Virus record (IMG/VR): IMGVR_UViG_3300037264_005172
Location: 1 to 29,857 of that record
Direction: 5' to 3' (one strand)
Origin: a virus
DNA length: 29,857 bases
The stretch's first letter is position 1. The number at the start of each line of letters is the position of its first letter. The notes under the pieces are model-generated. The model searched no databases. It worked only from the letters and a program-made list of their open reading frames with translations, and was not told the origin of the DNA. Shown in pieces: positions 1 to 22,896 of this stretch. A program made the position numbers and the translations under genes.

Positions 1-921
1 CAAGCATGTACGCAGTTGGTGGCGATTCAACCGCGCCTTGATCGGACGCGAGTTGATCTCCCGCAGATGGCCCATGAAGCCATCACACTCCGACAGGAAC
101 GCTGCGGCCTTCTCGATGGAGAGGCGCGGCGCACGGCGGACGAGGTCGGTGACGAACGACACGCACCAGTCGTCAAATTTGATCGTCATGCGCTCGCGGG
201 CGCGCGTGCGCCGCGCAGGATCGGCCCACATAGCGATCTTTCCGACCGACCGAACGGCGTTGTCAGCGGCGTGCTTCGGAGAGGCGTTGTAGGCGCGGAT
301 GTACTGACCAGAATCGCGCAAGCGATTCAGGGCTGAGGTCTGACGGCGCTTCGCCTCCGAACGGCTGTGCGCGATAAGGGGTGCGCCATGCGCTGCGTGC
401 CACCGCTGGTGATCGGATTCGGACATCAACATGAGGTTGGCAGGCAAGTTGTTTCGACCGTAACAGTCGACGTGGTGAATCACCTTCCCACGCTCATAAA
501 TCGCATCGCCCCACGTCGACTGCCCGACGACCCGATGCGTCGTCTCCCACTTGCGCGGCCCAGGATGAAACACGAGTTCGTATCTTCCGCGGCGTCCACG
601 GCGCCACTCCTTCCGATACAACGGCATCAGACTATCCCCGCCCTTGAGTTCCTGCGCCTCGACATAGGCCCCGTCCCGCATGAGGAATTTGTGATCGGGG
701 GTGCATCGCACCGACTTCCCGTTGTCCAGCATCACCTCGACCATCTCGGCGTTCAGGCGTGTCGGGCCCGCCCACAGCACTTCCCCGGGCACCACCCGTG
801 CGGTCTTCTCGTCCACCGAATAGACCCAGTTCCGCTTCCCCGCCTCGTGCTCCGCCGCCATGTCGCGGACAGAAACCTCGCGCCCGTCCAGAAGCACGAC
901 CTTCGTGTCCCCCGACAGGCA
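1..921 (-). mobile_element. Intein with HNH endonuclease in the portal gene (C-terminal part outside window)
   Basis: The intein begins at a Cys (CLSGDTKVVLLDGREV, splicing block A) directly after the portal sequence FNPL. About 70 residues later comes block B, with the TPDHKF Thr-x-x-His motif. The central region carries an HNH nuclease core: KVIHHVDCYGRNNLPANL followed by a DHQRWH motif, the pattern of HNH homing nucleases (His-His, Asn-Leu, His). A basic helical stretch rich in Arg and Lys follows and may be a DNA-recognition segment. At least 307 intein residues are visible; blocks F and G and the C-terminal junction are off the left edge. Splicing would be needed to make an intact portal. 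That it still splices is inferred from intact blocks A and B only. Confidence 0.88.
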
Positions 922-1848
922 AAGCGGGTTGAACCGCATCGACAGCTTCCCCGTCATCGGGTCGACGAGGCGCCGCTTCTTGAGCATGTCCTTGTACTTG
1001 TTGAGCGCACCGAAGACTTCGTTGCGCGGGATCTGCCCGACATCCACGGTGAAGACGAACCGCGACGGAGCGCGCGAAAGCCTGTAGATCAGCGCCGAGT
1101 CTTCCAGCAGCAGGAGGCGCTTCCACACCCACCGCGCGGGTTCAAGAACGCCGTATCCATACTTCGAGTGCAGGTGCTTGCTCTGGAATCGCATATGGGC
1201 GACCTGCCAGTCCTCGAACACGGCGTCGGTTGCGCTCTGCTGTCTGTTCGGATCGGCGAGCATCTTCTCGAACTCCTGCGGATTGATCGAAAGGCCCGTC
1301 CCCGTGAGCGACTGGATGAACCCGAGCAGCACGCCCTTGTCCTTCTCGATGCGGCGCACCGACGGGGCGGGAAGGTTGTAGAGACCCATAACGCCATCGT
1401 CCGTGACGATGAGCTCTTGATAGAGATTCCCGTATTTACACAAGGAGCGCGTCATCGGCCAGATCTCTTCGTCGATCCGCAGGCGCTTCTCGAACAGGAA
1501 CCGCAACTTGTCCTTGATGTCGCCGACGTCGGCCTCGATCTCCAGCGTCTTGCCCGTCTCGGCATCGGGCTGCGTCGCCTCGTCCGCGAACACATCGAGG
1601 GCGTTCGCCGTCTCGGTGTAGTCGTCCATGTCTTCGTAGTCCACATAGCGGCTCAGGAGATCCGACTCGTTGCGGAGTTGCTCTCCCATTTCGTTGAAGC
1701 CATGCGCGGCGAAGAGGGAGTCTGGCGCGTACTGTCCCTTGGGCTGAAGGCGGAACTCCTGATCGCGCTGCCCGTAGGAGCGAAGGAAGTTCAGGACGCG
1801 GCCCGAGAGGCGCCCGAAAATCCCCCGGATAGAGATGTCGTTGGCCAA
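1..1848 (-). CDS. Portal protein, T4 gp20-like, interrupted by an intein; 3' part outside window
   Basis: This is the start of a portal protein, the dodecameric ring at the capsid vertex through which DNA is packaged. The frame is open for 616 codons and runs off the left edge. Residues 1-309 are portal extein. The stretch RFVFTVDVGQIPRNEV followed by a Lys-rich segment and MTGKLSMRFNPL matches the gp20 family pattern in which a YVDVGNLP-like motif precedes the conserved core. At Cys310 the protein switches abruptly into an intein. The start is TTG: an in-frame TAG lies one codon upstream, the sequence GAGGT precedes it, and the next in-frame ATG is far inside conserved protein. It sits 11 bases after a 92-residue gene and downstream of the terminase, the usual terminase-portal order. 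The C-terminal extein should lie beyond the window. Portal identity is inferred from motifs and position. Confidence 0.85.
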   Translation of the reverse strand, partial: MANDISIRGIFGRLSGRVLNFLRSYGQRDQEFRLQPKGQYAPDSLFAAHGFNEMGEQLRNESDLLSRYVDYEDMDDYTETANALDVFADEATQPDAETGKTLEIEADVGDIKDKLRFLFEKRLRIDEEIWPMTRSLCKYGNLYQELIVTDDGVMGLYNLPAPSVRRIEKDKGVLLGFIQSLTGTGLSINPQEFEKMLADPNRQQSATDAVFEDWQVAHMRFQSKHLHSKYGYGVLEPARWVWKRLLLLEDSALIYRLSRAPSRFVFTVDVGQIPRNEVFGALNKYKDMLKKRRLVDPMTGKLSMRFNPLCLSGDTKVVLLDGREVSVRDMAAEHEAGKRNWVYSVDEKTARVVPGEVLWAGPTRLNAEMVEVMLDNGKSVRCTPDHKFLMRDGAYVEAQELKGGDSLMPLYRKEWRRGRRGRYELVFHPGPRKWETTHRVVGQSTWGDAIYERGKVIHHVDCYGRNNLPANLMLMSESDHQRWHAAHGAPLIAHSRSEAKRRQTSALNRLRDSGQYIRAYNASPKHAADNAVRSVGKIAMWADPARRTRARERMTIKFDDWCVSFVTDLVRRAPRLSIEKAAAFLSECDGFMGHLREINSRPIKARLNRHQLRTCL

Positions 1849-1859
1849 GGTCTACCTCG

Positions 1860-2138
1860 TCAGTCCGCGATGCGTGCGCGGCTCCGCGCGAGGCGGTTCT
1901 CCGCGTCCTTGCGGGCGGCCTGCTCGGCACCTGGCCCGATGTAGAGAACGAGGTTCTCCCCCGCGATGTCGAGGCCGCCCTTCACCTGTCGCCCGATGCT
2001 TGCGAGGGTCGTCTCGCCATAGATGTCGACCAGCGTCGAGCGGTCGTTGGGGTCGGTCACCATCCACACGGTGTCATCCGACTGGATGGAAGCGGTGCCG
2101 CCCCCAGCCCGTTCTTGCAGACTCCCAAGTCGCCTCAT
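1860..2138 (-). CDS. Hypothetical 92-residue protein between terminase and portal
   Basis: A small gene of unknown function between the large terminase and the portal. The ATG was chosen because a near-perfect Shine-Dalgarno (AAAGGAGA) precedes it by a few bases; longer readings run into terminase coding sequence. The product has a Gly/Ser-containing N-terminus, a central segment with many aliphatic residues (WMVTDPNDR, then LVDIYGETTLASIG) that looks like a small folded beta domain, and an Arg/Ala-rich helical tail. There are no Cys residues, membrane segments or recognised catalytic motifs. Position suggests a virion or head-assembly role, but that is inference from context only. Confidence 0.75.
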   Translation of the reverse strand: MRRLGSLQERAGGGTASIQSDDTVWMVTDPNDRSTLVDIYGETTLASIGRQVKGGLDIAGENLVLYIGPGAEQAARKDAENRLARSRARIAD

Positions 2139-2151
2139 ACCCGTCTCCTTT

Positions 2152-2163
2152 GCACGGCCGTGC
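2152..2163. repeat. Palindromic 12-mer GCACGGCCGTGC, copy 1 of 3
   Basis: Perfect palindrome in the 31-base gap between the terminase stop and the start of the 92-residue gene, directly before that gene's Shine-Dalgarno. Including one base each side it reads TGCACGGCCGTGCG, and the same 14-mer occurs twice more in the window. It could be a protein-binding operator or, as RNA, a short hairpin (GCAC stem, GGCC loop) next to the ribosome binding site. Confidence 0.7.
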
Positions 2164-2169
2164 GAGGGG

Positions 2170-5100
2170 TCACGGTACCTGCCGCGCGCCCTTCTGAAGC
2201 GGCAGCGTCGGAACGCGCCCCTTTCCCGAAAGCATCCACGACGGGGCAACGATAGCACCGTTCGAGCCGCCAGCGGACGGGAGTCCGAAGTCCCCAGTCG
2301 TCTGGAAGCCGTGTTCCCAGTCCTCCACAGGGATCATCTGCCCGTCAGGCCCCTCCACGAAATCGCCCGTGGCCGCAGGACTGTCTGGGTCAACGCTGAT
2401 GCCGAGAGATGGCCCCATCGCCTCGGCGGGGAGATTCGCGCGCACGGCAGCGTCGCTGGACGAGAGCGTGTATACACAGGCAGCTACAGCATCTGAAAGA
2501 TCTTTCGCGCCGGCCGAGGGGTGGTCAACTTTCCCCTTCCGCCTGTCGTGTTCCAAGCGCCGCAGCTCGTCCTGCAACGGCGGGTACGGATACAGCAGCA
2601 ACCGATCCTCGTAAAGTGCGGCCTTCAGCAACTCATAGGGAACTGTCGTGCGATCAACCGACACCACCTCGGCGCGATAACCGTTCTGCCGAAGTTGCTG
2701 GAGTCCCTCCGCAGAGTTGTGAGACACGAAGCCGTTGGCGATGTAAGAGGGGTCGTCCTCCACTTGAAGGTCAAACACCTCCGCTTCCGACGGTTCGATG
2801 TGGATGATCTTGGAGAACAGGCGGCGCCCCTTCACAGCGATATGTTTTCGGAGAGCCTCCTGCTTCCGCGAGTACGTGAACCCCACGCGGTTGAGGAACT
2901 TTTCCCGCGCCCCCCGAACGGAGAGGGTGTACTGAAATCCTTCCTTCACGTAACTCTTGGTCTGGCTGCGGTCTATCGTGGTGATGCACGACGCGATTCC
3001 GAAGTCCGTCCGCAGGACGATTTGCACCTGCCGCGCCAAACCGAGGTGCTTGGTCGAAAGAGATACACCACCATCCCTTCGGTTCACGGTACCGTCCGTT
3101 GCGAAGAGACCTCGCAGGAACGCGGCCTTCATCAAGCGGTTGCTACGAAGGATTGCCGTTGGAATAAGGGGCTTCACGAGACTGTTCGCGGCCAGCCACC
3201 GCACCAACCAGCGGGCGTGGATACCAAGGATGCCGCAGTTCCGATCCTTGTGCGGACGAAACTTCGGCCTCACCCCGAACAGACGCTCAAACACGGCACG
3301 GGCGTCGGAGGACTCCTCCTCCGTCACGCTCAGGCGAACAGAGTCCCTACCGATGTCGCCATCCCCCCAAACCAAGCCGAGCCACTCGGCCAGCGACACG
3401 GTCATCGCCATCGGAAACTCGAACGCGGCGATGGCTCCGCGACCCGCGCGCCCCCACCCAAGGAGATTCTTGTCGTTGCGACGCAGCGGATATCCCCCGT
3501 AGTCAGGGTCAACCTCCGTTGGATCATCCACAAGGTGAACGACATCACCGATCTGACATTCGTCCAGCCGACGCCACGCCCACACGGGATTTCTAGTATG
3601 ACCGTACTCCGTCCAATGCTCAGGCCCCCACCCGGCCTGAGCCTCGATGCGGTGCTTGGCCGTTCCCTCGATGATGTGCCCGTCCTCCGTCGTGACGCGC
3701 AGGGTCGGTCGCTTCCCAAACGCCCATCCCTTCAACACACGCCGCGGGCCGACCCGAGACTGCACGATGTCCCCCGCCACAACCTCCTCAACAGGGACGA
3801 GTCCTCGGCCAGTATTCACCAGCGTCCCCTTGGCGAGGCACTGCCACGCATCCATCGAGACATAGAGAATGCGCATCCCGTGCTTGGCGAGATCGTAGAT
3901 GAGGACGCGCACATCGGAGAGGATGATCTCGTCACCAGCCGGGGGCACGATGCGCAGGCAGAAATCCACCTTCACGATGGGCGCACGCTCGATGAAGGTA
4001 GAACCAGACGAGCGATCAGCCCGCTCCATATCCTTGAAGCCGTGAACATGCGCCACGGCAAGCCCCGTCGCATCCCCCGTAAGCGACCCGTCGATGTGCG
4101 CGTGGCGGGGTGCCCGCACGCAGCAGAGCGGCTCGTTCTCTCCGTTCTCGGGATTGCGGCGGACAAGGTACTGCCATCGAAAGGTGGCGACCGTCCCTGC
4201 CTCCCACTCAAGCACCGAGAAGGGATGGATGCGCCCAGGTTCGAGGGCGTCCTCGATCTTCTCGCGGCGCCCGATGAAAGGGGACACGGCGACCGTGGAC
4301 ACGCCGAGGTCGTCGCGGATGGCGTTGTCGAGATCCTTCTCGAAGGAGGAGCGCAGTTCTTCGGGAACCTGGTGGAGCTGCGCACCCTCGAGGTGGCGAT
4401 ACTGATCGGGGTCATCCTTGTCGGAGAGGATGCGCGAGTGGTGCTGCTCGTTCCCGACCAGCACCCAGAACCTCTTTGTCCCAAAGGCGTCGGGCTTCAC
4501 GGCCCATCGGTTGTACTCGCGGATAAACACGCCGCCCTCGCGGCGCGCGTCGCGGATGCGACGCTCGATGAAGTCATTGGTCGTCCGCTTCGACGACACG
4601 AGAAACAGTTTCCCTGGGAGCTTCCCGCCGCGCTGGAGATAGCGCGACTTCATGCGGCGGAGGAGAAGCGTGTAGAGGATCTCGGAGCGGTCGACGAACC
4701 CGAACCGCCGCATGTCCTTCTTCTGCTGCTCCGTCATGCCGCCGAGGAACGCCGACTCGTCCAAAATCCCCCCGAACACGTTGAGACCCAAAACATTGTT
4801 GTTGGTGGCCGCCGCCGGCGCGAGATCGATTCCCTTGGGGAAGCGAATGCTTTCTTTCGTAACCTTCGGTTGAAACTCCCGCACGAAGTACGGAGAGAGG
4901 GCCATCATCTGCGCCATGGACTCGAGGAGGGAGCGCTTGGCGATGTCCACCTTGACCGAAATGGCAACGAGCGAGATGAGCGAGTCGGGCGAGAGGCCCA
5001 TCGCGCGCTGCGGATCGCGGAGACACGAAAGTTCGTAGATGCTGCGGACGGTCGCCAGCTTGGCAAAAAAACTTTTTCCCCATCCGATTGCTCCGGAGAT

Positions 5101-5367
5101 CAAAACCTCGTGGTAATCACCCTCAAACATCTCGACGAGATCGTCCTTCAGCTTCGGATAGAGCGACCTGCCGATGTCCCCCATGTAGTAGTCGTCCTCG
5201 AGCCACTGACGGACGGGCACCACGGAGCGCTCAAAATCCATTCCGAGGACGGGCCCAAGCACCTTCTCGTGCCCCTCCAAGTCCGCCTTCTGCAGGAGGC
5301 GCAGTGCCGCCTCGCGCTCATCGGGCGCGAGGCCCTCTAGGATCGCGGCGTCGTCGGCAGAACTCAC
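2170..5367 (-). CDS. Terminase large subunit (ATPase-nuclease) interrupted by an intein
   Basis: Large terminase, the packaging motor that translocates phage DNA through the portal and cuts it. The ORF encodes 1065 residues; without the 375-residue intein the protein is 690, somewhat long for the family. The ATPase domain shows a Walker A-like SGAIGWGKSFFAK (about residues 91-103) and a Walker B with catalytic acid, VFGGILDESAFL (197-208). The nuclease domain includes DVRVLIYDLAKHGMRILYVSMDAWQ before the intein, and SAEGLQQLRQNGY, a DRTTVPYELLKAALYEDRL segment and KDLSDAVAACVY after it, matching the RNase H-like end of terminases. The GTG start overlaps the upstream stop as GTGA. The last ~70 residues are Gly/Ser/Pro-rich. 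No small terminase is adjacent; a candidate is the gene ending at 15910. Confidence 0.93.
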   Translation of the reverse strand: MSSADDAAILEGLAPDEREAALRLLQKADLEGHEKVLGPVLGMDFERSVVPVRQWLEDDYYMGDIGRSLYPKLKDDLVEMFEGDYHEVLISGAIGWGKSFFAKLATVRSIYELSCLRDPQRAMGLSPDSLISLVAISVKVDIAKRSLLESMAQMMALSPYFVREFQPKVTKESIRFPKGIDLAPAAATNNNVLGLNVFGGILDESAFLGGMTEQQKKDMRRFGFVDRSEILYTLLLRRMKSRYLQRGGKLPGKLFLVSSKRTTNDFIERRIRDARREGGVFIREYNRWAVKPDAFGTKRFWVLVGNEQHHSRILSDKDDPDQYRHLEGAQLHQVPEELRSSFEKDLDNAIRDDLGVSTVAVSPFIGRREKIEDALEPGRIHPFSVLEWEAGTVATFRWQYLVRRNPENGENEPLCCVRAPRHAHIDGSLTGDATGLAVAHVHGFKDMERADRSSGSTFIERAPIVKVDFCLRIVPPAGDEIILSDVRVLIYDLAKHGMRILYVSMDAWQCLAKGTLVNTGRGLVPVEEVVAGDIVQSRVGPRRVLKGWAFGKRPTLRVTTEDGHIIEGTAKHRIEAQAGWGPEHWTEYGHTRNPVWAWRRLDECQIGDVVHLVDDPTEVDPDYGGYPLRRNDKNLLGWGRAGRGAIAAFEFPMAMTVSLAEWLGLVWGDGDIGRDSVRLSVTEEESSDARAVFERLFGVRPKFRPHKDRNCGILGIHARWLVRWLAANSLVKPLIPTAILRSNRLMKAAFLRGLFATDGTVNRRDGGVSLSTKHLGLARQVQIVLRTDFGIASCITTIDRSQTKSYVKEGFQYTLSVRGAREKFLNRVGFTYSRKQEALRKHIAVKGRRLFSKIIHIEPSEAEVFDLQVEDDPSYIANGFVSHNSAEGLQQLRQNGYRAEVVSVDRTTVPYELLKAALYEDRLLLYPYPPLQDELRRLEHDRRKGKVDHPSAGAKDLSDAVAACVYTLSSSDAAVRANLPAEAMGPSLGISVDPDSPAATGDFVEGPDGQMIPVEDWEHGFQTTGDFGLPSAGGSNGAIVAPSWMLSGKGRVPTLPLQKGARQVP
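2716..3840 (-). mobile_element. Intein with LAGLIDADG endonuclease in the large terminase gene
   Basis: A 375-residue in-frame insertion between Gln509 and a Ser of the terminase nuclease domain. It starts at Cys (CLAKGTLVNTGRGLVPVEEV, block A), has block B GTAKHRIEAQ (Thr-x-x-His) and ends with block F/G VFDLQVEDDPSYIANGFVSHN followed by extein Ser. That is a complete Cys1 / His-Asn / Ser+1 splicing set. The middle carries both LAGLIDADG motifs, EWLGLVWGDGDI and FLRGLFATDGTV, each with an intact Gly-Asp or Thr-Asp acid, so the homing nuclease may be active. The insertion site is in a conserved terminase motif (aromatic-Gln then Ser), typical of intein targets. Confidence 0.95.
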
Positions 5368-6302
5368 GGCGCTGGCGCGAGATCCTTGAACCGCTGCGTA
5401 GGCGGTGAATCGGCAACGAACGCGGCCTTCCGCACACGGGGTTCCAGCTTGCCCATCTCAAACTCGTAGTAGGTGTTCGTCGGGGTAAGGCCCGAGCTGG
5501 GCACCAACGGGATTTGCCAGAAGCCTGATGCGTCCGTCTTCGTCTCGAAGAAATCGGGCGTAAGGAGATCACTGGTCGCGGTCACGAACACGGGCCGCGT
5601 ATTGATCTTGACGAGCACGGGAACATCCTTGATCGGCTGCCCGCGGTCATCCACGATGCGGTCAAACACGATGACCATACCCGGCGAGAGCGATGCGAAG
5701 GCCGAAGTAAGGGAGTCCACGCGCGTCGTCGGCGGCTGGCTAGAAGTCTGCGAGGTGAAGTTGACCCCGATGGCGTTGTAGCCGACCTTGAAATATCGAA
5801 TCGTGAGCGGCGTCGCGGGCGGCACGAACACCGTCGCCTGCCCCAAGGTGTCCGTGAAAGCGAGCGCGAGCGGATTGGCGAAGGTCGTGTCGCTCTGAAG
5901 GTAGACCTGCACCGAGACGCCCGAGATGGCCAGCAAGGTCACGGCATCTAGGACGGTCACGGCGACAGGCACGCCACCGAGAACGACGCCAGGGACGACG
6001 GTCAGCGCGACGACGGAGAGGTCATCCACGGCGAAGACGGTGGTCGCGGCGCGATCCCACACGACGGAACCGATGAACGGAGTCGTGAAGGTGCGCTGCG
6101 TGGCGTAGATGCCCGAGGTCGGAGCCAACTCAACAATGCCAGGCACGGAGGTCGGGTTGGACTGGCGCGCAAGGACGGTCGAGCCGTTCGGCGCGTAGAC
6201 GGTAAACCCGATGGCCCCAGGCGTTGCCGCCAATCCCGAATTGGCCGGCCCGAGATCAGCGGTGAGCGGAACCGAACTACCAGCGACGGCGAAGATGGAC
6301 AC
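5364..6302 (-). CDS. Probable virion protein with Ig-like/transthyretin-like beta domains
   Basis: A 312-residue protein of unknown exact function, upstream of the terminase and overlapping its GTG start by 4 bases. It is rich in Val, Thr, Pro and Ala with alternating hydrophobic residues, as expected for all-beta structure. Segments such as GVPVAVTVLDAVTLLAISGVS and GQPIKDVPVLVKINTRPVF followed by TKTDASGFWQIPLVPS resemble carboxypeptidase-regulatory-like or Ig-like repeats (a turn with Asp-x-x-Gly before a beta strand). No signal peptide is obvious. Such domains are common in phage fibre, neck and decoration proteins; a surface role is inferred. The ATG start lies one base downstream of the end of the HAD gene's coding context and has no better alternative. 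Confidence 0.75.
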   Translation of the reverse strand: MSIFAVAGSSVPLTADLGPANSGLAATPGAIGFTVYAPNGSTVLARQSNPTSVPGIVELAPTSGIYATQRTFTTPFIGSVVWDRAATTVFAVDDLSVVALTVVPGVVLGGVPVAVTVLDAVTLLAISGVSVQVYLQSDTTFANPLALAFTDTLGQATVFVPPATPLTIRYFKVGYNAIGVNFTSQTSSQPPTTRVDSLTSAFASLSPGMVIVFDRIVDDRGQPIKDVPVLVKINTRPVFVTATSDLLTPDFFETKTDASGFWQIPLVPSSGLTPTNTYYEFEMGKLEPRVRKAAFVADSPPTQRFKDLAPAP

Positions 6303-6698: not shown

Positions 6699-6702
6699 GC
6701 GC

Positions 6703-7469: not shown

Positions 7470-7487
7470 GGTCGTCTATCCCCTAGG

Positions 7488-9096: not shown

Positions 9097-9130
9097 TTGT
9101 AACCCCCTTCCGTCCATAGATGGGCCAGGT

Positions 9131-11107
9131 TCACGCCTTCTGAAGGTACACGATGTCCTTGGTGCCGATCCGCAAGGACACCGCGATAGGGATCGTTTCG
9201 TCCAACAAAATGGCGGCGGTCAATATGTCCAACGACTCGGCCAATCCAATGGATTCAAGCAGGGACACCAGCGTCCCGTGGGACGGGGTCAAATCCTCGT
9301 CCACATCCACGGACTCCGACACGGCCTGAACTGCCCCGAGCAGCGTCGTAACGCTGTCCGAAACCGTCACCGTCTCGTCCAGATGGACGCCCGTGTTCAC
9401 GAACAGCGATTCCGCCAGCGCCACGGACTCGGACAGGGATGGCAGCGCTCGATAGACGAAGGTCTGGTTCTCCGCCGTCCCGATCGTTTCGGACAACCCC
9501 TGCTGCGTCCCGTGCTTGATCGCTTGGTTCTCGAACAGGTCAACCGTCTCAAACAGCAGTGTGTCTCCCTCGGTGTCCACGCTCACGGATTCGGCCAAGG
9601 ACACCGACTCCGAGTTCGGAACGAAGGCGGAGAACTTCTCGGACTTCGCCTCGGTCAAGTCCACCGTCTCCGACAACCCCTGCACCCGCCCAGCCTTCTC
9701 CAACATCGCCTCGGCCAAGGAAACCGCCTCGGGGAGCGCCTCGGCGGTCGCGTGCTTCACGAAATCGGATTCGGAAACGGACACGGATTCGGACACGGAG
9801 ACAACCCCGGACAGGTCGGTCACGAGGGACTCGTCCGTCGTCACCGTCTCGGACAGGGGCACCTTCGGCTTGAAGGTGCTCGCTTCCGCCTCCGCCAGCA
9901 ACACCGTTTCCGCCAAGTCGGGCTTGAACTTTCCTTGGTGAGACACGGCCTCGGACAGGCTGGTCGTCTCAGACAGGGCCTCTTGGGCCGTCGTCTTTTG
10001 GGACGACGATTCCGCCAGCGCCACGGTTTCTTCCAATGGCGGCCTCGCCTTGTACGCAGACGACTCGGCCTCGGACAGCGTGACGGTTTCGGACAATGGA
10101 GTCGGGAATGTCTGCCGAGCTACCCCATCTTCAGCCAGCGGGACAGACTCGGAGATCGTCACCTCCGCCTCGAAGTCGGTCACCAAGGACTCACCCGTTG
10201 GAGTCGTCTCGGCCAACGGAACTACGGCCCCGAGCTTCTCGGACTCCGCCTCTGACAGCGTGACCGTCTCGGCCAAGAACGCCTTCCGCCCAGCCACCTC
10301 CGTCTCGGCCTCGGCCAGCGCCACCGTCTCTGGCAGCGGAACGATCGGCCTGAACATGGTGACCGTGGCCTCCGATACCGTAGTCGTCTCGGACAGCAGA
10401 ATCTTCGGCTTGCCAATCGTCTGCTCCGACTCCGACAGATCGTTCGTCTCGGCCAACGGAACCTTCGGCTTGAAGATGGCTGGGCCGCTCTCCGTCACGG
10501 CGACGGTCTCGGACAGAGCGGACACATACGCGAGTCCGATGTTCTCGGTGAACTCAACCCATGTATCCCCGTCCGCGCCTCCCGTGGCGCCGTCCGTGTC
10601 CATCGTCACGGTTCTGCCGTTCGCCATCGTCACGCCGTTCCCGTCGTCGATGTAGACGCGGACGCCGATTCGATCCCCCGCGCTGAACGCCGTGGATGTC
10701 GGAGTCCTCGTCCAGTTCTGGGCGGCGAGCGTCGTCGTCAGCTCAGCGCGGGACAGGAGCACCGTAGCAACCGTGCTGACGATGGCCCCCGCGTTATCGA
10801 GGCGCAGGATCTCGGCCGTGATCGTGGCGTTCGCTTGGTTTGCGGACTCCCTCGCCCACAGGTTGATCGTGATGGTTCCCGAAATCGTGACCGCCGCGAT
10901 CGGCGGGGACGCCCACGTGCAAACGGTTCCGCCGCCAGTCTTCGTGAACTGCGTCGCGGCGGTCGGCGGCGTCACGGGGCCAGCCATCGTGTTCTTCACA
11001 TAGGCCACTACCCCAGCACCGACCGCCCGCAAAATGTCGTGCATGGCGTCGGAACCAGTCACGGCCCCAGATGTATTCGAGTCCCGGAGGTACAGCTTGG
11101 TCGCCAC
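9131..11107 (-). CDS. Fibre-like structural protein with 23 tandem 20-residue repeats
   Basis: A 658-residue protein in two parts. Residues 1-197 start MATKLYLRDSNTSG and contain beta-rich segments (TISGTITINLWARESANQA, AGDRIGVRVYIDDGNGV) like the virion-binding or jelly-roll domains of phage fibre and decoration proteins. Residues 198-658 are an unbroken array of 20-residue repeats with consensus LSETVxLxEs followed by ten variable residues, often ending in Pro. The array is very acidic, low in aromatics and has no Cys, fitting an elongated extracellular shaft. The start is GTG; the Shine-Dalgarno is weak. It follows a homing endonuclease gene. A fibre or whisker role is inferred from architecture and neighbourhood, not from a recognised family. 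Confidence 0.8.
   Translation of the reverse strand: MATKLYLRDSNTSGAVTGSDAMHDILRAVGAGVVAYVKNTMAGPVTPPTAATQFTKTGGGTVCTWASPPIAAVTISGTITINLWARESANQANATITAEILRLDNAGAIVSTVATVLLSRAELTTTLAAQNWTRTPTSTAFSAGDRIGVRVYIDDGNGVTMANGRTVTMDTDGATGGADGDTWVEFTENIGLAYVSALSETVAVTESGPAIFKPKVPLAETNDLSESEQTIGKPKILLSETTTVSEATVTMFRPIVPLPETVALAEAETEVAGRKAFLAETVTLSEAESEKLGAVVPLAETTPTGESLVTDFEAEVTISESVPLAEDGVARQTFPTPLSETVTLSEAESSAYKARPPLEETVALAESSSQKTTAQEALSETTSLSEAVSHQGKFKPDLAETVLLAEAEASTFKPKVPLSETVTTDESLVTDLSGVVSVSESVSVSESDFVKHATAEALPEAVSLAEAMLEKAGRVQGLSETVDLTEAKSEKFSAFVPNSESVSLAESVSVDTEGDTLLFETVDLFENQAIKHGTQQGLSETIGTAENQTFVYRALPSLSESVALAESLFVNTGVHLDETVTVSDSVTTLLGAVQAVSESVDVDEDLTPSHGTLVSLLESIGLAESLDILTAAILLDETIPIAVSLRIGTKDIVYLQKA
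9134..10516 (-). repeat. Coding tandem repeat, 60-bp period, about 23 units
   Basis: The DNA encoding the LSETVxLxE array repeats with a 60-base period (20 codons). Units are diverged in the variable half but keep the codons for Ser-Glu-Thr/Ser-Val and the second Ser/Ala-Glu. One or two units near the C-terminus appear a residue or two off the exact period. This is a protein repeat, with frame conserved across all units, and not a CRISPR or intergenic repeat. Confidence 0.88.
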
Positions 11108-11145: not shown

Positions 11146-11892
11146 TCAGTCCGCGATTCTTTCTCGTTCCCTCCGTGCCTTCTGAGAGGCGGAAAGCCGC
11201 GCCCTCGCCTCCAGCGTCCATCCAGACCGCATTCGATCCACGACTTCCGAGGAGCGGGGGACGCCGCGCCTCTTTTCCGCTTCGGCACGCACGGCTTGGC
11301 TCGTCATCCTACTCGCCCCAATCTTCTGTCGAACCCGCTCAGGAAGCGGGATGCCTTTCCGTTGACCCATTTTCGCGGCGCTGATCTTAGCTTTGGTTTC
11401 GTCAGACCGAGGGACGCCGACTTTCAGCGCGGCGATACGCGCTATGTGTTGGGGCGTGTTGGTGTTTCGTCCCTTCATCTTTTTTGACATCGCCGTTTTC
11501 CACTCGTCGGTGTGCTTTGGGTGTGGCTTTCCGAGGTTCGATAGACGCTGCTTCTCACGCTCCTCAACCGTTGGAACATATCCAGCGCGACCACCGCCGC
11601 CGTTCGACAGGTTCACCAGCCGAACTCCAGATGCACGCGCTTCCGAAATGTGCTGCACCTCCAGAGCATCCAATCCCGCCTGATCTTCCGCCTGTCCGCG
11701 AACTAGAATCGTCGGCCGCGATCCGCGCTTCAACACCGAAGCAATCCAGTTCGACAGATACGAACGCCGCCGCAGAGACCAAGGAGATACATGCACCCCC
11801 AGTCTCTTTTTTGGCGGCTGTATAGTCTGCCCGATGTAGCGGAGTTCGTTACTCTCGGGATCGTGCAAACCGTAGATGACTCCGTGAGGCAT
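11146..11892 (-). CDS. Free-standing GIY-YIG homing endonuclease with NUMOD3 motifs
   Basis: A 248-residue homing endonuclease. The N-terminal GIY-YIG nuclease domain shows GVIY (residues 4-7) and RYIG (18-21), then KKRLGVHV, a Glu-containing ALEVQHISEA segment and the family's RLVNLSNGGGG. The C-terminal half carries at least three NUMOD3-type DNA-binding motifs (GKPHPKHTDEWKTAMSKKMKG, GVPRSDETKAKISAAKMG, and a degenerate GVPRSSEVVDRMRSG copy). Enzymes of this type cut an allele lacking the gene and spread by repair. The gene sits exactly between two fibre-like genes: its ATG is immediately before the upstream stop, and 38 bases separate it from the repeat-protein GTG. No intron-like flanks were seen, so it is probably intergenic. 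Confidence 0.92.
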   Translation of the reverse strand: MPHGVIYGLHDPESNELRYIGQTIQPPKKRLGVHVSPWSLRRRSYLSNWIASVLKRGSRPTILVRGQAEDQAGLDALEVQHISEARASGVRLVNLSNGGGGRAGYVPTVEEREKQRLSNLGKPHPKHTDEWKTAMSKKMKGRNTNTPQHIARIAALKVGVPRSDETKAKISAAKMGQRKGIPLPERVRQKIGASRMTSQAVRAEAEKRRGVPRSSEVVDRMRSGWTLEARARLSASQKARRERERIAD

Positions 11893-12465
11893 TTACGTTC
11901 CGAAAGCGACAGAACCATACGAGAGAAGCGTCAGCAAAATGTAGAGGCCAAGTGTGAGGGTATACGTCACCTGAATCGTATCATTCGTCTGAAGCGACCG
12001 CTGCGTGAACAGTAGCTCGTGGTTCATGTTTCCGGCCGACGACGCATCGAACAGGGCTGCCTTCTGGCACGCTTGGGCACCAGTCGCGGTGAATGTCTTG
12101 TCAACGGTTGTCTGGTTGCCCGATCCCGTTGGCAGCGTGACCGTCCCTTGGGCGCGAGACAGGCCGTTGGCGGCGATCTCGGCGGTCAGGGTCGTGTCGG
12201 TGGCGGCGGGGGCTGTCGCGTCGTTGGACAGGGCGATGTAGTTCATCCCGTTGGCCGACAGGCCCGATGTCCCGAAGCACTGCTTGTGGTACTGGACACG
12301 GCCCACATTCAGGATCAGGTTGTGCTGCTTCTCGACGCCGAGGACATCGCCATTGGCGTTGCGGTGGACGACGGCGATCTCGGCCCTCCGAAGCCCGATG
12401 GCCTCGCGCAGGACGGGGACGCGCCAGATCGCTTCCAGCACCGCGTTCTTCAGGAGCTTCTTCAT
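11893..12465 (-). CDS. Probable tail/fibre-associated structural protein
   Basis: A 190-residue protein with a good Shine-Dalgarno (GGAGGG) before its ATG. An N-terminal helix with basic residues (MKKLLKNAVLEAIWRVPVLREAIG) precedes a Gly/Thr/Ala-rich beta domain with MNYIALSNDATAPAATDTTL and LSRAQGTVTLPTGSGNQ, wording typical of phage tail and fibre-associated proteins that I have seen described only as hypothetical structural proteins. After TYTLTLG the protein ends in an odd hydrophobic tail (LYILLTLLSYGSVAFGT) just before the homing endonuclease gene. That tail could be a membrane-seeking C-terminus or a rewritten end caused by the endonuclease insertion. Confidence 0.7.
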   Translation of the reverse strand: MKKLLKNAVLEAIWRVPVLREAIGLRRAEIAVVHRNANGDVLGVEKQHNLILNVGRVQYHKQCFGTSGLSANGMNYIALSNDATAPAATDTTLTAEIAANGLSRAQGTVTLPTGSGNQTTVDKTFTATGAQACQKAALFDASSAGNMNHELLFTQRSLQTNDTIQVTYTLTLGLYILLTLLSYGSVAFGT

Positions 12466-15030: not shown

Positions 15031-15032
15031 GG

Positions 15033-15413: not shown

Positions 15414-15421
15414 AATCCCTC

Positions 15422-16620: not shown

Positions 16621-17464
16621 CTGCGGCGCGCGCCTCCCACCCGTCCATAACCTTCGCCCAGACATCGTTGATATCGACGCCTGCGCGAACCACCTTCTCC
16701 GTCATCGCCTTCATCATATCGTAAACGGCGTCGTTGGCGAGGGTGTAGAGTACCTCGCGCTCGCCGTACCCGAAGGCGACGAAGTTGCTGGTGATCGTGG
16801 AACCGTGCTTCGACAGCACGGAGTTCACCAGCGTCGAGAGGTCGTCCGCCGTCTTGGCCCGCGCCTTCTTATGGTCGAAGTCCTTGAGGACGGACTCCGA
16901 GAGGCCTGCCTGCTTCAGGCCATCGCGCACCTGCTTCAGGAGGACACCCCACGCATCGATGCGGAATCCCATAAACTGGCGCAGCGACTCCTCCCCGTAC
17001 TTGGGGGAGAGGCGCTGCACCGCCGCCGACAGCTTCACCACAGACGGTCGCCCGTGGACGGCGTTGAGACGGCAGGCCGCGAAGAACCGCGCGTCCTCCT
17101 CTTCCCACTGCGGGCCGCGCAGGGTGACGACGGGCACGCGCAGCATCCCCGCCGCCTGCGCCGCACGGAGACGGTGGGCACCGCCGACCACGAGGTAGCG
17201 CCCGTTGGAGATTGGCACGACCTCGAGGGGGTCGATGAACCCCAGCTCGCGGATGCTCTCCTTGAGGAGGGCGAACTCCTCGTCGTCCATCTCGTTGATG
17301 TTTTCGGCCATCGGGTCGAGCAGGAGCGGATCGACCATCTCGAAGCCGATGTCGGTCTGCATCGCCGCGTCCACGGCGGGAGACGAAGGCGGCATCTCGG
17401 GCAAAGGGGCGTCGACGACCGTCGGCGCATCTTCGCACGGCCGTGCAATCGGGGCGGACTCCAC
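16601..17464 (-). CDS. ParB/Srx-like N-terminal domain protein
   Basis: A 287-residue protein with a ParB-like domain at about 43-115: a conserved acidic start (PMAENINEMDDEEFALLKESI), RELGFIDPLEVVP, and the family signature LVVGGAHRLRAAQAAG (91-106). In related domains that His-Arg motif binds CTP or forms a nuclease site. In phages such proteins act as modulators, DNA-binding or nicking factors, or partition proteins. The C-terminal 170 residues are helical and lack a recognised helix-turn-helix, so a true partition role is unproven. The start is GTG, two bases after the preceding stop. A 12-bp palindrome repeated in the window lies inside its 5' coding end. Confidence 0.8.
   Translation of the reverse strand: MESAPIARPCEDAPTVVDAPLPEMPPSSPAVDAAMQTDIGFEMVDPLLLDPMAENINEMDDEEFALLKESIRELGFIDPLEVVPISNGRYLVVGGAHRLRAAQAAGMLRVPVVTLRGPQWEEEDARFFAACRLNAVHGRPSVVKLSAAVQRLSPKYGEESLRQFMGFRIDAWGVLLKQVRDGLKQAGLSESVLKDFDHKKARAKTADDLSTLVNSVLSKHGSTITSNFVAFGYGEREVLYTLANDAVYDMMKAMTEKVVRAGVDINDVWAKVMDGWEARAADVLERK
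17435..17446. repeat. Palindromic 12-mer GCACGGCCGTGC, copy 2 of 3
   Basis: Inside the 5' end of the ParB-like gene, encoding part of IARPC, about 20 bases after its GTG. The 14-mer with flanks is here in the opposite orientation to the other two copies (CGCACGGCCGTGCA on the plus strand). Its position at the gene's 5' end would suit autoregulation by a bound protein, which is inference. Confidence 0.65.
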
Positions 17465-17466
17465 CG

Positions 17467-18129
17467 TCAGCGCTGTCCCAACACGAGTGCGTCGTCGAGG
17501 GCAGCGTCTTCATCGTCGTTTCGATCATCGTCCCCGCCATCGTCCTCGTCTTCGTCTTCGTCCTCCTCGGGGTCGCCTACGATGTCAAGGACGGCCTCCG
17601 CGTCGTTCTTGGCATCTTCCAGACCCTCGATGGCAGCCTCCGCCGCCTCTTGCCCCTCGGGCGGAAGGTGCGGCATAAGCGCCTGCAGGGTGAGGATGTG
17701 GGAATCCGCGAGGGCGGCAACGAGTCCGTAGGCGTGAGCCATTCCCGCGACCGCGAGCTCGGGATCGCGCTCCATCTCCTCAACCTCGGCCTCGACCTCG
17801 GCGGCGTCGACGGGGCCTGGATCCTCCGCCTCAGGTTCGGCGTCCGCCAAGTCCTCTGCGAGACGATCGAGGCGTGCGTCCTCGGGATCCGCCGACGCAA
17901 CATAGACGCGCCTGCGCCCGCCCTTTCGCAGGCGAGCGATGCGCTTTTTGAGGCGCTTCCTGATTCGCTGAAGACGGCGAAAGCGCCCAGTCCGTCGGTA
18001 CTTCCGTCCCGACCGTTTGCGCTTCCCGCGCACCTTGCGATACTGCCGTCGGCGCTTCGCACGAACCCTCGCGGGGACGCGCTTCTTGCGAACCACGCGG
18101 ACGCGCTCGTCGAGTCCTTCCACGGGCAC
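17467..18129 (-). CDS. Polyampholyte protein: Arg/Lys-rich N-terminus, Asp/Glu-rich C-terminus
   Basis: A 220-residue protein of unknown family. Residues 1-75 are extremely basic (VRAKRRRQYRKVRGKRKRSG, RKRLKKRIARLRKGGRRR), suited to nucleic acid binding. Residues 80-165 are acidic helices, and the last 40 contain a run of EDEDEDEDDGGDDD. A protein with both a histone-like and a DNA-mimic end could be a packaged internal protein, a scaffold or an RNA-binding factor. Frame choice rests on GC-rich third positions and on the stop abutting the ParB-like GTG; two other frames are also open in part of this region. The start is GTG with no clear Shine-Dalgarno. Confidence 0.65.
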   Translation of the reverse strand: MPVEGLDERVRVVRKKRVPARVRAKRRRQYRKVRGKRKRSGRKYRRTGRFRRLQRIRKRLKKRIARLRKGGRRRVYVASADPEDARLDRLAEDLADAEPEAEDPGPVDAAEVEAEVEEMERDPELAVAGMAHAYGLVAALADSHILTLQALMPHLPPEGQEAAEAAIEGLEDAKNDAEAVLDIVGDPEEDEDEDEDDGGDDDRNDDEDAALDDALVLGQR

Positions 18130-18237
18130 GAGTGTACCCGAAGCCCCATAGGGCCGCCATACTCGAGGGTCGCCTCTGTGACTTCACGCGCCACGACCGT
18201 GGGGGGCAGTGGCACCAGAGCCTCGGACACGGCGGCC

Positions 18238-21200
18238 CTATGCGGCTACGGGCTGGATCGCTTCCTCCTTGGTAGATGGCTCGACGATGACAGGTGCCGC
18301 AGCGTCCTCTCGCCGCGCAATCTCCCATTCGGCCACCATCGCGGCGCCCTCATCGACGGTCATCACGAGCGCCCCCGATGGCGCATTCGCCGCCTTGTCG
18401 CGCGAGGGCACGAAGTAGATGTGCCTCCCGTCCGAGCGGCGTCGCATAACCATCGTGAGTCCCTGCTCCTCGAGATCGCGCCACGACATTCCGTAGCTGT
18501 GATCCTTCTTCAGCTCGCGCTTCTCCCCCCAAGTCGGCTCGGCCTTCGCCACGGAGACGGTGATCGGCACAATATGGTCGTACACCTCGGCCCCGTGCGC
18601 GAGGCGCCACACACCCGCCTCGTCCACGGTGTCGGGCAACACGATCTGGAACTCGTCGTGGACGAAGTTCTGCATATACCCACCAAGGACACGAACAGCG
18701 GGGCCGAGGCGCGCCATCGCACTCTTGGTGATGTCCGCCTCCCACATCTGGATGCAGTTATGAACCAGAACGCCCTCTACGACGAAATGCGGCTGACCAC
18801 CGCCAAGGATGGTCACATCGTAGCAGTTTCCCTTTCCAGCGGACTCCACACGCAAAACCGTCGTGACGGCACCATCTGGAGTCAAAACGGTACCTTTGCT
18901 GCCGTCGATAAACCGACTGAGGAGTTTCCTCTTCTTCTCGTGCGCGAACCCTACGCGATCCCTAAAGAAGGCGTAGCCCGCCTTCGGAATATGGATTCGG
19001 AAGAACCCGTCGTAAGGAGGGTTCTTGTAGAAGAACACCTTCGCGGGGATTCCCAGGGAAAGGAGCAGAAGATGAACCCCACGGGCTAGACCTTCGCCGA
19101 CAGATGTGAACCCTAGAAACCCACCGTGGTTCCTGCCTCGCACAAAAGTCCCGTCCGTGTCGTACAGCCCTCGAAGCAGCGCCGCACGAACCTCCGCAGG
19201 GGCCGTGAACGCCCATTCGGGAATGGTCTTATTCCTCCGAGACTCACGATCTAGGCCGAGTTCGCGCATCCTCTCGCGGGCAGCCTTGTTGCAAAAACGG
19301 ATGTGTTCCCCCGCACCCCCTGGTGTTGACGATGGCGAACGCCCAATACCCGCCCCTGGAAACACGCGCTTCAACAGACGCTCGATATGGAGGGAGTAGG
19401 AGCGTTCCTTCCGATTCACGGCGACGCGCACCTCGTTGCTTACCCCTCGACAGTAGCTCCCGTCCCCGAGAAGAATACCTGTGACCTCTGCCTCATCCGC
19501 AGAAATGGCGCACTTGCTTCCAGGAGACAAGTGCGGAGAAAGGATGAGAGCGTCTCCTGGCAGGAGGCTGTGGGCTTCCTTCCACCCGAAACCGCCAGCA
19601 GGAGAAAGGATGGCTACTCGATGGTCGGTGGAGCACGTGAACTGCGCTCCAGCGCACACGACGCGAACGAGCGCCTTCTGTCCGACTGGGAAAATCTTTG
19701 CGGGGCAGAACCTCTCCCCGTCGAAGACACGCCCCTGAGCAGCCTCTATCTTCTCGTAGCCGCGATCCGTGGCGATCCGCATACCTTCTAATATACACGT
19801 ATTCAGGGCCACATGGTGAAACTCTGGATCGAGCCATCGCCGCCTGCCAGATGGCAACCTCACCCACCCGCCGTTCTTCTTCGCGTCGCTCTGAAAGCTG
19901 AAGTACGCCTGTCGCACATCGGGATACGCGGCCCGCAGCCCGTCGAGGAACACCTGAGCCTGCTCCACCGTGACGCGGTTCTCGGTACGGTGCTTATTGA
20001 TGGTGTCGGCGAGCGTCTCCGCGCCTGAGCCGAAGACGATGGCAAAGTTCACCGAATCCTCGGTGAGAAGGCCGTTCGTCACCATCAGGCGTTCGGGGGG
20101 TGCGACGAGGTCATACACAGGGGCCGTGCCGCACGGAACGATAGACTCGATCGCGTCAGAGCACACGCCGTTCTCGACGGCCCACTCCACCTCCACGGGC
20201 CACGCACCCCGTGGAATGCACTCCCACAAAGATTCCCCGAAGCGCACGCCCTTCTTTGCGCACAAGGCAACGCGCTCACGGATATGTCCCTGCACGGCAG
20301 GCGTGCGCAACAGCGCGTCCAATCCGCCACGAGACACGGGCACGAACCTCGTGCTCCGAGCATCCTTGTCACGCACAAGCGCCTTAGACAACTTGGAGCG
20401 TTTCTCAGCAGACGCAAACCCGACGACCTCGGAAAAACGCCGCGCCTCGCGCCCGAAAACGCCGACAATCCAGAACGCTCCGTACTTCGGTCGCCGCGTC
20501 ATTTGCACGCACGAGACAATCCCGAGGTTCGCCAACATCGCTTGGACTTGCCGCACCAGGATTTCCGACTTTGAGGTGAGACTCACGGCCACATTCCGAC
20601 AAGCGACCGACCCGTCTCCCTCGAACAATCCGCGCAAAAACTCCGTTTGGAACTCCTTGGGAGCAGCGCGAATCAGGCGCGGAACCCTTTTGTTGGCAGA
20701 GCCATCTCCACAGTCCAGCATGCCCATCCAATGGAAAAAGTCGCGGGAGGTGCAAGATAGGGTGGCGACTCGATTGCCCTTCGCTGTCTTTCCCAGATAG
20801 CGACGCAGGCGGCTTCCGACCAACACCCTCCAACACCTTTCCGCGTCGTCCACGGCCTCCCCTTCAAGCATCCCGATCGTAACAGCGTAGCCCGTACCGT
20901 GGTGGCTACGACTTCCTTCGGAAACATAGTAACCAAGCCACCGTGCGGCTTCGGGAGACAGCGCCGCAGGCAGCGAGACAGGCTTGGAGGAGGTGCGGGC
21001 AGGCAACAACACCTTCGGAAGACCGACTTCGCGCCCGAAGAGGGATGTTCCAATCTTCAAGGGGAGTTCGTCTTTGGGGTGCAAATCAGCAAGAGGCACA
21101 AAATCCATACGACCATCTCGAAAAACCAAGAAGCGATGAGCGGCGGTCGCCGTGAGTACGAAGCCAAGCTTCGTAGTCACCCGATACACGGGCTGCTCCC

Positions 21201-22896
21201 CGCCGTAGTAAACCTGTGTCACATCGCGCACGCCCTCTTTCGACGCCGCCGACAACTTGAACGGCGCGTCTTGGAACTCTCCTGGGCGTTCCCTCGGAAC
21301 CAGCTCGTCCATCCGAAGCAGCCCCGCATCCGTGCAGACCAACGCATCCCCCGTCACGCACTTGGCCATGATCCGTTCCGCCAACCCCAACGCAGTCTGC
21401 GTCTCCCTGTGAATGTCGCGCCCCGCGAGGAACGCTTCGATCATCCTCTTGTCGCGGGCGATGATGGCCGCGATGCGGAGCTGGAGTTGCTCGTAGTCAA
21501 CGAGCCAGAGATTGAACCCTGGCGGGGCGACGAACGCACGCCTGACGCCCGCATCCGCGCTGCGTGGCATCTGCTGGAGGTTTGGTTCTGACTGCGACGT
21601 CCGCCCCGTGTCCGCCCCGAGTTGTCGGATGCTCGGATGGATGCGGCCACCATCGCCCGACTCAGCAAACAGACGGAGCGACCCAAGAAACTCAAGGGAC
21701 TTGGTGAGTTCCTTCCACCGCAGGACGCGAAGGGCAAGAGGATGCCCCGTCCGAGAGAGGGCCTTCTCGTGCGTGGCGACCTGCCTGCTCGGGCCTCCCT
21801 TCGAGAACGCGCCCGCGATCTCCTTCGGTATCGAGACGCCGCGCCGCGCACAGATGTCCTCGAGAACATCGCGTGCGCCACTGAACTCGCGCGATGCGTA
21901 GCTCTCGCGCTCAAACGCAGCGGCGACGCCCTTCGGAATCCCAGGGGAGGACAGCCACTTGGCGACCACGCCAAACAGCGCCTCCCACGCCTTCCCGCCG
22001 CCCGTCATCTCGGTAAGAGGGACTTTCTGCTCCACGAGATACTTGGCGAGATCCCGAGCCTTGGCAAGGTCGCAGGAGAACTCGGAGGCGATGGAGTCGG
22101 CCTCGGCCTTGAGCTTCGCCTCCTGCTCGCGCAGGAAGTCGTGACGCACGGCGCAGCCGCCCTCCTCCATCAGGTTCAACTCTGGCATTGCGGCGTACTC
22201 GAGGTGGGCCGTGGCTTGGAGCGCGGGGTCGTAGTCCTTCATCGACCGCTCCCGAACATCCGCGACCATCTCGCAGTCAGCCATCGCATACTCGGCGACG
22301 AGGTAGGGGTTGGCCTTGGCCATCGCACCGCGCACGCGGATGCTCGTCTTGTGCTCCTTGAACCAGGCGTCGAGGGCGGCCCTGTCCTCGGCGGCGAGAC
22401 CGAACGCGGCCTTGGCGAAGGGCTTGAGCTCGAACGACTCGTACTTCCCCGCGTAGATGATCTGGCAGAGGAGCATCGCGCACCTCGTCCGCGACCAGTC
22501 CACCATCACCCCGTCCTTCGACAGCATGGCGGAGTCGAATCGAGCGTGCCACCAGATGTTCGGGACGGGCAGCGCAAGGACAGCGCGGATGATTTCGAGG
22601 GCCTCGGCCATGTCGGCGTTCTCGAACGGGTCATTCTCGTGAGATGAACCGAATAGGTCACCGTTGATGGCCTCAGGCTTCCACTCGTGGCGCAGCGGGA
22701 CATAAATGGACTGCCGCCGCTCCCCCTTCCGCCAATGGGCGGAGAAGCCGACGATGCGGTCACCATCATGTGCGCGAAGTCCTGTTGTCTCGGTGTCGAG
22801 ATAAAGCATCCCAGACTGCGCCGCCCCCTCGAGGAAGTCGGCGGCCTCCGCCATCGTGCGGACGATCCTGCGGTCGGCCTTCGCGGGGGCGATCAC
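18238..22896 (-). CDS. Family A DNA polymerase with 3'-5' exonuclease, interrupted by two inteins
   Basis: Replicative-type DNA polymerase I homologue; 1552 residues, about 770 after removal of both inteins, close to phage PolA length. Exonuclease motifs: LYLDTETTG (Asp34, Glu36), HARFDSAML, and YAMADCEM. Polymerase motif A is LVDYEQLQLRIAA (about 465-477), motif B is K-SVNFAIVFG split by intein 1, and motif C is NFVHDEFQIVLPD. Compared with E. coli Pol I, the steric-gate Glu710 is Gln and Tyr766 is Phe, while Phe762 is kept. The GTG start overlaps the upstream stop (GTGA). No 5'-nuclease domain is present. Function requires both splicing events. Neighbours suggest a replication and DNA-modification block. 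Confidence 0.95.
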   Translation of the reverse strand: MIAPAKADRRIVRTMAEAADFLEGAAQSGMLYLDTETTGLRAHDGDRIVGFSAHWRKGERRQSIYVPLRHEWKPEAINGDLFGSSHENDPFENADMAEALEIIRAVLALPVPNIWWHARFDSAMLSKDGVMVDWSRTRCAMLLCQIIYAGKYESFELKPFAKAAFGLAAEDRAALDAWFKEHKTSIRVRGAMAKANPYLVAEYAMADCEMVADVRERSMKDYDPALQATAHLEYAAMPELNLMEEGGCAVRHDFLREQEAKLKAEADSIASEFSCDLAKARDLAKYLVEQKVPLTEMTGGGKAWEALFGVVAKWLSSPGIPKGVAAAFERESYASREFSGARDVLEDICARRGVSIPKEIAGAFSKGGPSRQVATHEKALSRTGHPLALRVLRWKELTKSLEFLGSLRLFAESGDGGRIHPSIRQLGADTGRTSQSEPNLQQMPRSADAGVRRAFVAPPGFNLWLVDYEQLQLRIAAIIARDKRMIEAFLAGRDIHRETQTALGLAERIMAKCVTGDALVCTDAGLLRMDELVPRERPGEFQDAPFKLSAASKEGVRDVTQVYYGGEQPVYRVTTKLGFVLTATAAHRFLVFRDGRMDFVPLADLHPKDELPLKIGTSLFGREVGLPKVLLPARTSSKPVSLPAALSPEAARWLGYYVSEGSRSHHGTGYAVTIGMLEGEAVDDAERCWRVLVGSRLRRYLGKTAKGNRVATLSCTSRDFFHWMGMLDCGDGSANKRVPRLIRAAPKEFQTEFLRGLFEGDGSVACRNVAVSLTSKSEILVRQVQAMLANLGIVSCVQMTRRPKYGAFWIVGVFGREARRFSEVVGFASAEKRSKLSKALVRDKDARSTRFVPVSRGGLDALLRTPAVQGHIRERVALCAKKGVRFGESLWECIPRGAWPVEVEWAVENGVCSDAIESIVPCGTAPVYDLVAPPERLMVTNGLLTEDSVNFAIVFGSGAETLADTINKHRTENRVTVEQAQVFLDGLRAAYPDVRQAYFSFQSDAKKNGGWVRLPSGRRRWLDPEFHHVALNTCILEGMRIATDRGYEKIEAAQGRVFDGERFCPAKIFPVGQKALVRVVCAGAQFTCSTDHRVAILSPAGGFGWKEAHSLLPGDALILSPHLSPGSKCAISADEAEVTGILLGDGSYCRGVSNEVRVAVNRKERSYSLHIERLLKRVFPGAGIGRSPSSTPGGAGEHIRFCNKAARERMRELGLDRESRRNKTIPEWAFTAPAEVRAALLRGLYDTDGTFVRGRNHGGFLGFTSVGEGLARGVHLLLLSLGIPAKVFFYKNPPYDGFFRIHIPKAGYAFFRDRVGFAHEKKRKLLSRFIDGSKGTVLTPDGAVTTVLRVESAGKGNCYDVTILGGGQPHFVVEGVLVHNCIQMWEADITKSAMARLGPAVRVLGGYMQNFVHDEFQIVLPDTVDEAGVWRLAHGAEVYDHIVPITVSVAKAEPTWGEKRELKKDHSYGMSWRDLEEQGLTMVMRRRSDGRHIYFVPSRDKAANAPSGALVMTVDEGAAMVAEWEIARREDAAAPVIVEPSTKEEAIQPVAA
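18757..19797 (-). mobile_element. Intein 2 in the DNA polymerase gene, LAGLIDADG type
   Basis: A 347-residue insertion in HVALNT-CIQMWEADI, which aligns with the N845...Q849 segment of E. coli Pol I. Block A starts at Cys (CILEGMRIATDRGYEKIEAAQG). Block B is CSTDHRVAIL, with Ser in place of the usual Thr before x-x-His. LAGLIDADG motifs are VTGILLGDGSY and LLRGLYDTDGTF, both with intact acids. The end is CYDVTILGG... then VEGVLVHN followed by extein Cys, giving a canonical Cys1 / His-Asn / Cys+1 set. By eye the DNA is less GC-rich than the polymerase exteins, which suggests later acquisition. Confidence 0.95.
20056..21360 (-). mobile_element. Intein 1 in the DNA polymerase gene, LAGLIDADG type, atypical Glu-Asp C-terminus
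   Basis: A 435-residue insertion exactly in motif B, between the catalytic Lys of IMAK and SVNFAIVFG. Block A begins at Cys (CVTGDALVCTDAGLLRMDEL); block B is LTATAAHRFLVF. LAGLIDADG motifs are RWLGYYVSEGSR and FLRGLFEGDGSV. The C-terminal block reads VYDLVAPPERLMVTNGLLTED before extein Ser: the usual His-Asn is Glu-Asp. Inteins ending in Asp are known and some splice, but loss of the penultimate His as well is uncommon. The junction is placed by the extein alignment AK-S-VNF, which leaves no other sensible cut. Confidence 0.92.

Follow-up and report, generated by a model that had tools for sequence, protein, structure and literature searches.

What makes inteins accumulate in some phage lineages and not in their close kin is a question that can be addressed by the group of phages to which the DNA analysed here belongs. 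This DNA (the window) is the complete 29,857-base virus record IMGVR_UViG_3300037264_005172, in all likelihood part of a longer phage genome, and its main genes are encoded on the minus strand. An earlier note had placed in it four inteins, one in the portal protein, one in the large terminase (TerL) and two in the family A DNA polymerase (PolA), together with a free-standing GIY-YIG homing endonuclease. All five elements are present at the positions it gave. They lie on the minus strand in open, in-frame sequence and are supported by Pfam, NCBIfam and PHROGs. The three nuclease families are also as the note assigned them: HNH in the portal intein, LAGLIDADG in the TerL intein and both PolA inteins, and GIY-YIG/NUMOD3 in the free-standing gene. 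We conclude that the window is very probably part of the genome of a large tailed phage into which selfish homing elements moved repeatedly, independently of one another. Such invasion explains the anatomy of the inteins, their conserved sites, mixed nuclease types, composition and scattered distribution.

Exact intein positions were read from the translated frames, and the junctions were set against intein-free relatives. The alignments place each of the four inteins, in frame, at one exact position within a conserved host protein, and every site is contiguous in intein-free relatives, in agreement with the note. Cys1 (block A) is present in all four. Block B reads TPDH, TAKH or TAAH, and STDH, with Ser replacing Thr, in PolA intein 2. 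Each of the three LAGLIDADG inteins carries two acidic motifs (pairs SEG/GDG, GDG/TDG and GDG/TDG), and LAGLIDADG_3 (PF14528) matches TerL with an E-value of 1.7e-14 and PolA, in two stretches, with 9e-30. NCBIfam intein_Nterm matches the portal (2.2e-11) and PolA (1.9e-7), and intein_Cterm matches TerL (1.9e-7). The homing elements have a lower GC content at third codon positions (GC3): 0.64, 0.70, 0.75 and 0.79 in the inteins and 0.63 in the GIY-YIG gene, against 0.79-0.87 in most host genes of the window, the TerL C-extein (0.71) being an exception. The note's statement that every large conserved gene is invaded was too strong, as the HerA-like ATPase and ParB-like genes of the window are intein-free.

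The TerL gene consists of an N-extein of 509 aa (3841..5367), which aligns at full length with phage large terminases, an intein of 375 aa (2716..3840) and a C-extein with the nuclease motifs DHPSAGAKDLSDA (2170..2715, by alignment); these and all portal, PolA and GIY-YIG coordinates below refer to the minus strand. The intein interrupts the nuclease domain at DAWQ|S (the bar marks the insertion point) and has blocks F and G with a His-Asn end and Ser +1 (SHN|S). Cultured phages, among them Vibrio phage vB_VcaS_HC and Rhizobium phage RHph_Y1_11, have the spliced context, MDAWQ|SAEG, without interruption. The T4 gp20-like portal N-extein (309 aa, 922..1848; Portal_T4 1.7e-28, PHROG 213 1.5e-26) is at most 50% identical to the portals of relatives. 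It breaks off at RFNPL|, where intein-free relatives run on as NPL|SQDEDIFLPV and similar, and is followed by the first 307 aa of the intein (1..921; Intein_splicing 5.1e-11), including an HNH_3 (PF13392, 6.6e-8) motif, IHHVD...NN..NL...H. Blocks F and G of this intein are invisible because the window ends inside it. A relative (L021) holds a complete intein at the same portal site, 39% identical to that of the window, which has both blocks and ends VCN|S; further inteins lie at or beside this site in L242 and L254. Likewise, the TerL site (DxxQ|S) that holds a LAGLIDADG intein in the window holds an HNH intein in another relative, L008. The latter and the portal intein of the window are related (33%), indicating that intein lineages jump between genes.

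The polymerase gene is interrupted twice. Its N-extein with the exonuclease domain (21361..22896; DNA_pol_A 6.8e-36, DNA_pol_A_exo1) is followed by intein 1 (435 aa, 20056..21360), directly after the O-helix lysine of motif B (AK|SVNF), by a middle extein of 86 aa from motif B to before the Q-helix (19798..20055, by alignment), by intein 2 (347 aa, 18757..19797) in the Q-helix motif (NT|CIQ), and by a C-extein with motif C, VHDE (18238..18756, by alignment). Among 80 related marine polymerases, AK|SANFGLLYG is uninterrupted in all, and NT|PIQG or a close variant in 79; the 80th sequence ends early. The spliced PolA aligns contiguously with intein-free polymerases. Among 50,697 annotated phage records, the 40 best matches by coverage times identity cover at most 29% of the interrupted PolA at one place. 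A recent duplication as the source of the two PolA inteins was rejected, their alignment being limited to 107 residues (36%). Apart from the inteins, motif A of the window's polymerase (LVDYEQLQLRIAA, within 21361-22896), DYEQLQLR, has Gln where relatives keep Glu (DYSQIELR); we take this glutamate to be Glu710 of E. coli Pol I, the ribonucleotide steric gate.

Intein 2 has blocks F and G with a His-Asn end and Cys +1 (VHN|C). Blocks F and G of intein 1 align without gaps (VYDL...NGLLTED|S) and end in Glu-Asp for His-Asn, with Ser +1. Missing blocks or non-conserved sites, which the note had named as refuting its reading, are therefore not what the sequences show, except that blocks F and G of the portal intein fall off the contig and block G of PolA intein 1 is atypical. 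Among the 46 complete inteins that we collected, 45 end in Asn (36 in His-Asn), and PolA intein 1 is the sole one to end in Asp. It may splice poorly, since the penultimate His, the terminal Asn and the block F His are absent. Could it be decaying or dead, with the phage's PolA copy inactive or bypassed by another polymerase? The unusual end and the missing assisting His of block F point that way, but the 1,552-codon frame is open and the exteins and both LAGLIDADG motifs are intact. Moreover, splicing of inteins with a C-terminal Asp is reportedly a subject that Amitai studied in 2004. We therefore consider a dead intein improbable. Inteins with a C-terminal Asp can splice, and we infer that PolA intein 1 probably does so, slowly, by Asp cyclisation. 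The terminal codons, GAG GAT, are at least three base changes away from His-Asn, more than one read error would account for. An AlphaFold2 model of intein 1, built from an alignment of 12 inteins (mean pLDDT 79, pTM 0.82), finds its best Protein Data Bank (PDB) match in the TliVMA intein, which contains a homing endonuclease (7qss, TM 0.71).

Single-protein scans of IMG/VR gave few relatives of the window, and alignment-based scans were needed. A TerL alignment scan yielded 80 loci on contigs of up to 194 kb, with TerL at most 47% identical to that of the window. The phages in question are large and tailed and form an uncharacterised group, of which the window is a member. In many of them pol lies upstream of terL and the portal gene on the same strand. 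Genome contigs gave distant TerL relatives only, several of them in bins or strains of Pseudomonadota, and for this reason we name no host.

To locate the insertion sites of the relatives, their PolA, TerL and portal sequences were aligned to intein-free profiles. Inteins in this group crowd the catalytic motifs of PolA, TerL, the portal, ribonucleotide reductase (RNR), helicases and other proteins. The PolA sites are GRYS|S.PNLQ, motif A (DY|SQIELR), the O-helix (AK|x.NFG), NFGL|CFGMG and the Q-helix (N|TPVQG), the last one residue earlier than the window's NT|C. The TerL sites are two positions of the P-loop, Walker B (DE|xNF) and, in the nuclease domain, DxxQ|S and DHP.G|SKD. About ten portal sites include the NPL|S shared by the window and L021. 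The O-helix site is used twice, in the window and in the relative G056, whose intein there has a canonical end, THN|C; among 80 loci of related polymerases we found no third AK|x case and no other Asp-ended intein. PolA intein 1 is nearer to a motif A intein of another relative, G092 (29%), than to the same-site intein of G056 (24%).

We next compared intein load inside and outside the group. Around terL in the group, our own N- and C-terminal intein profiles detected 72 inteins (897 kb, the records being partly redundant). Around the portals of relatives outside the group they detected only two (859 kb), and around marine polA none (653 kb). Because these profiles were trained on this group they are biased in its favour, and an independent Pfam model gave inteins in 20 of 50 group records and in 3 of 42 outside, one of the three with internal stops. 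The richest record, G092 (145 kb; IMGVR_UViG_3300017971_000207; L280, L299, L300), read gene by gene, holds 16 inteins in nine genes: three in PolA, one in TerL, two in the portal, three in RNR, two in an SF2 helicase, two in a papain-like peptidase, and one each in a DnaB-like helicase, a UvrD-like helicase and a RecA-like protein, the last cut off by the end of the stretch read. Names other than PolA, TerL and portal in this record rest on sequence motifs judged by eye. One of its inteins lies just before the apparent catalytic Cys of the papain-like peptidase, and two helicase inteins lie in the DECH and SAT motifs. A second record, G056 (98 kb; IMGVR_UViG_3300012982_000018; L281, L301-L304), has at least eight inteins, in PolA (2), the portal, a gp25-like baseplate protein, RNR, a DnaB-like helicase, a ParB-like protein akin to that of the window and a prohead protease/scaffold-like protein. 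The four inteins of the window in 30 kb fit this group. In the literature searched, outside which most subscription papers fall, we came across no phage described as having 16 inteins.

We examined how the inteins are distributed by building a TerL extein tree from 64 dereplicated loci, 61 of which were scored after three incomplete rows were left out. Inteins occur in 17 of the 61, and a minimum of 15 changes on the tree is needed to account for where they are present or absent; when the labels were shuffled at random 500 times, 57% of the shuffles required no more than that. TerL intein presence thus no longer tracks the phage family tree and is as scattered as shuffled labels. The closest differing pair, L200 and L214, is 96.5% identical, with a P-loop intein in L214 only. 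The terminases of L022 and L008 are 86% identical, yet their inteins sit at different TerL sites, and L022 has a portal intein that L008 lacks. Scattered presence and differing sites in sisters are the mark of selfish homing in which inteins turn over rapidly.

The earlier note had proposed, as speculation, that conditional splicing gates replication and packaging together. On this reading the inteins would be kept as switches through which temperature, redox or pH releases polymerase, TerL and portal in a coordinated manner. All inteins do interrupt essential genes at their catalytic motifs. A condition-sensitive pair is described for mycobacterial DnaB (PMC6195587), and changing the penultimate residue alters the splicing rate of a mycobacteriophage intein (PMC5050341). 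However, coordinated switching predicts conserved co-inheritance, whereas relatives hold other inteins or none at the same sites, their presence on the TerL tree cannot be told from a random pattern, and the four inteins belong to different sets with different termini. The distribution lends the proposal no support, and we consider it very unlikely. That a chimeric assembly of unrelated reads made the interrupted genes is barely credible, for although the record was built from assembled reads and one end lies inside an intein, the junctions are codon-exact and match the same or adjacent sites in independent contigs, and G092 and G093, from two metagenomes, have matching sets of intein matches; the assembly error that the note had named as a possible refutation thus fails.

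Repeated selfish invasion would proceed as follows. The HNH intein and the three LAGLIDADG inteins of full length would be translated as parts of the portal, PolA and TerL, and would be excised by the class 1 route, through Cys1 attack, a branch on Ser or Cys +1 and cyclisation of the last residue, to leave working proteins. Their nuclease domains would cut the intein-free alleles of co-infecting phages, and repair would copy the intein; the GIY-YIG gene would spread likewise, with no splicing. Catalytic motifs would be the sites of insertion because no DNA targets are more conserved and because it is there that an intein is hardest to lose imprecisely. Gain and loss in this group would be fast enough to erase phylogenetic signal. 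Several points weigh against this account: that the elements splice, cut DNA and home is an inference; PolA intein 1 has the aberrant C-terminus described above; the end of the window truncates the portal intein; and the TerL tree comes from a quick search with some long branches, the window being placed with moderate support (81% SH-aLRT, with L190).

Phage inteins in TerL, portal and PolA, several per genome and in active centres, are already known (PMC5050341, PMC7886860). The mycobacteriophage TerL inteins (TerL1-a to -e, TerL6, Pham3880; PMC5050341) resemble those of the window and its group in their homing endonucleases, in using several sites near functional motifs and in a variable penultimate residue; all of them, however, lie in the ATPase domain, in contrast to the nuclease-domain site of the window. 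The crAss-like Delta and Zeta phages likewise pack homing elements densely into core genes, with up to 14 introns and three inteins per genome in Zeta phages and typically an intein in TerL in the Delta group, as in the window (PMC7886860). Their elements are mostly group I introns, whereas the window has inteins and a free-standing endonuclease and no intron found by Rfam. A huge unannotated phage, LR756508 (484 kb), has six Intein_splicing matches within 28.6 kb. Its portal gene (LR756508.1, 145925-148297; L010) holds three inteins at three sites, one of them homologous (42%) to the window's portal intein, but the portal sites differ and the genome is much larger. With these precedents and the 16-intein relative, the note's statement that the density is far above the usual was overstated. 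TliVMA (7qss) and PI-PkoII (2cw7) share with PolA intein 1 a splicing domain and a two-motif LAGLIDADG nuclease; they are 16-17% identical to it, come from archaeal hosts and lack its Glu-Asp end. Bacillus phage Eldridge also has a LAGLIDADG-like intein in a family A polymerase, at TGTA|TSRLASQSPNLQ and not at the O- and Q-helix sites.

Each element of the window is therefore of a known kind, and what may be new is the intein load of the group. We lean, with reserve, towards the view that this undescribed group comprises the most intein-loaded phages known, in which several PolA and TerL motifs are hit and turnover outpaces phage divergence, and that the Glu-Asp O-helix intein is a natural variant of the cyclisation step. 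The group offers dozens of same-gene comparisons, including terminases that are almost identical but for an intein or the position of one, and intein gain, loss and competition can thus be measured in it. Inteins in multiple catalytic motifs of PolA, with a natural Asp-ended variant among them, are useful for splicing chemistry. Core genes of this kind are also a warning to annotators, being readily overlooked or split.

The free-standing GIY-YIG gene (11146..11892; NUMOD3 4.6e-6, PHROG 314 1e-10, TIGR01453 4e-4) begins immediately past the stop of a fibre gene (11893-12465). Its GIY-YIG Pfam domain falls below the cut-off (E 0.005), and VIY...YIG and the Arg, Glu and Asn are visible in the sequence. 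The GC3 of the gene contrasts with 0.81 and 0.84 in the neighbouring fibre genes. As Rfam found no intron in the window, we do not read the gene as intron-borne. In the same region, 9131-11107 encodes a 658-aa fibre-like protein with many degenerate repeats around 'xLxETVxLxE' and no Pfam match, and a tRNA-Arg called by ARAGORN at 12359-12448 on the plus strand, antisense within the fibre gene, is probably false. A QueC-like protein (Pfam 2.3e-15; 23569-24261) adjoins an HD-domain-like protein (24326-24862), possibly a pair of nucleotide or DNA-modification genes. The intein-free HerA/FtsK-like ATPase (24859-26790), with PHROG terminase similarity (2e-14), is possibly a second DNA-translocation motor. 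Finally, the protein encoded at 27408-27851 has an L,D-transpeptidase (YkuD) domain, which phages do not usually carry.

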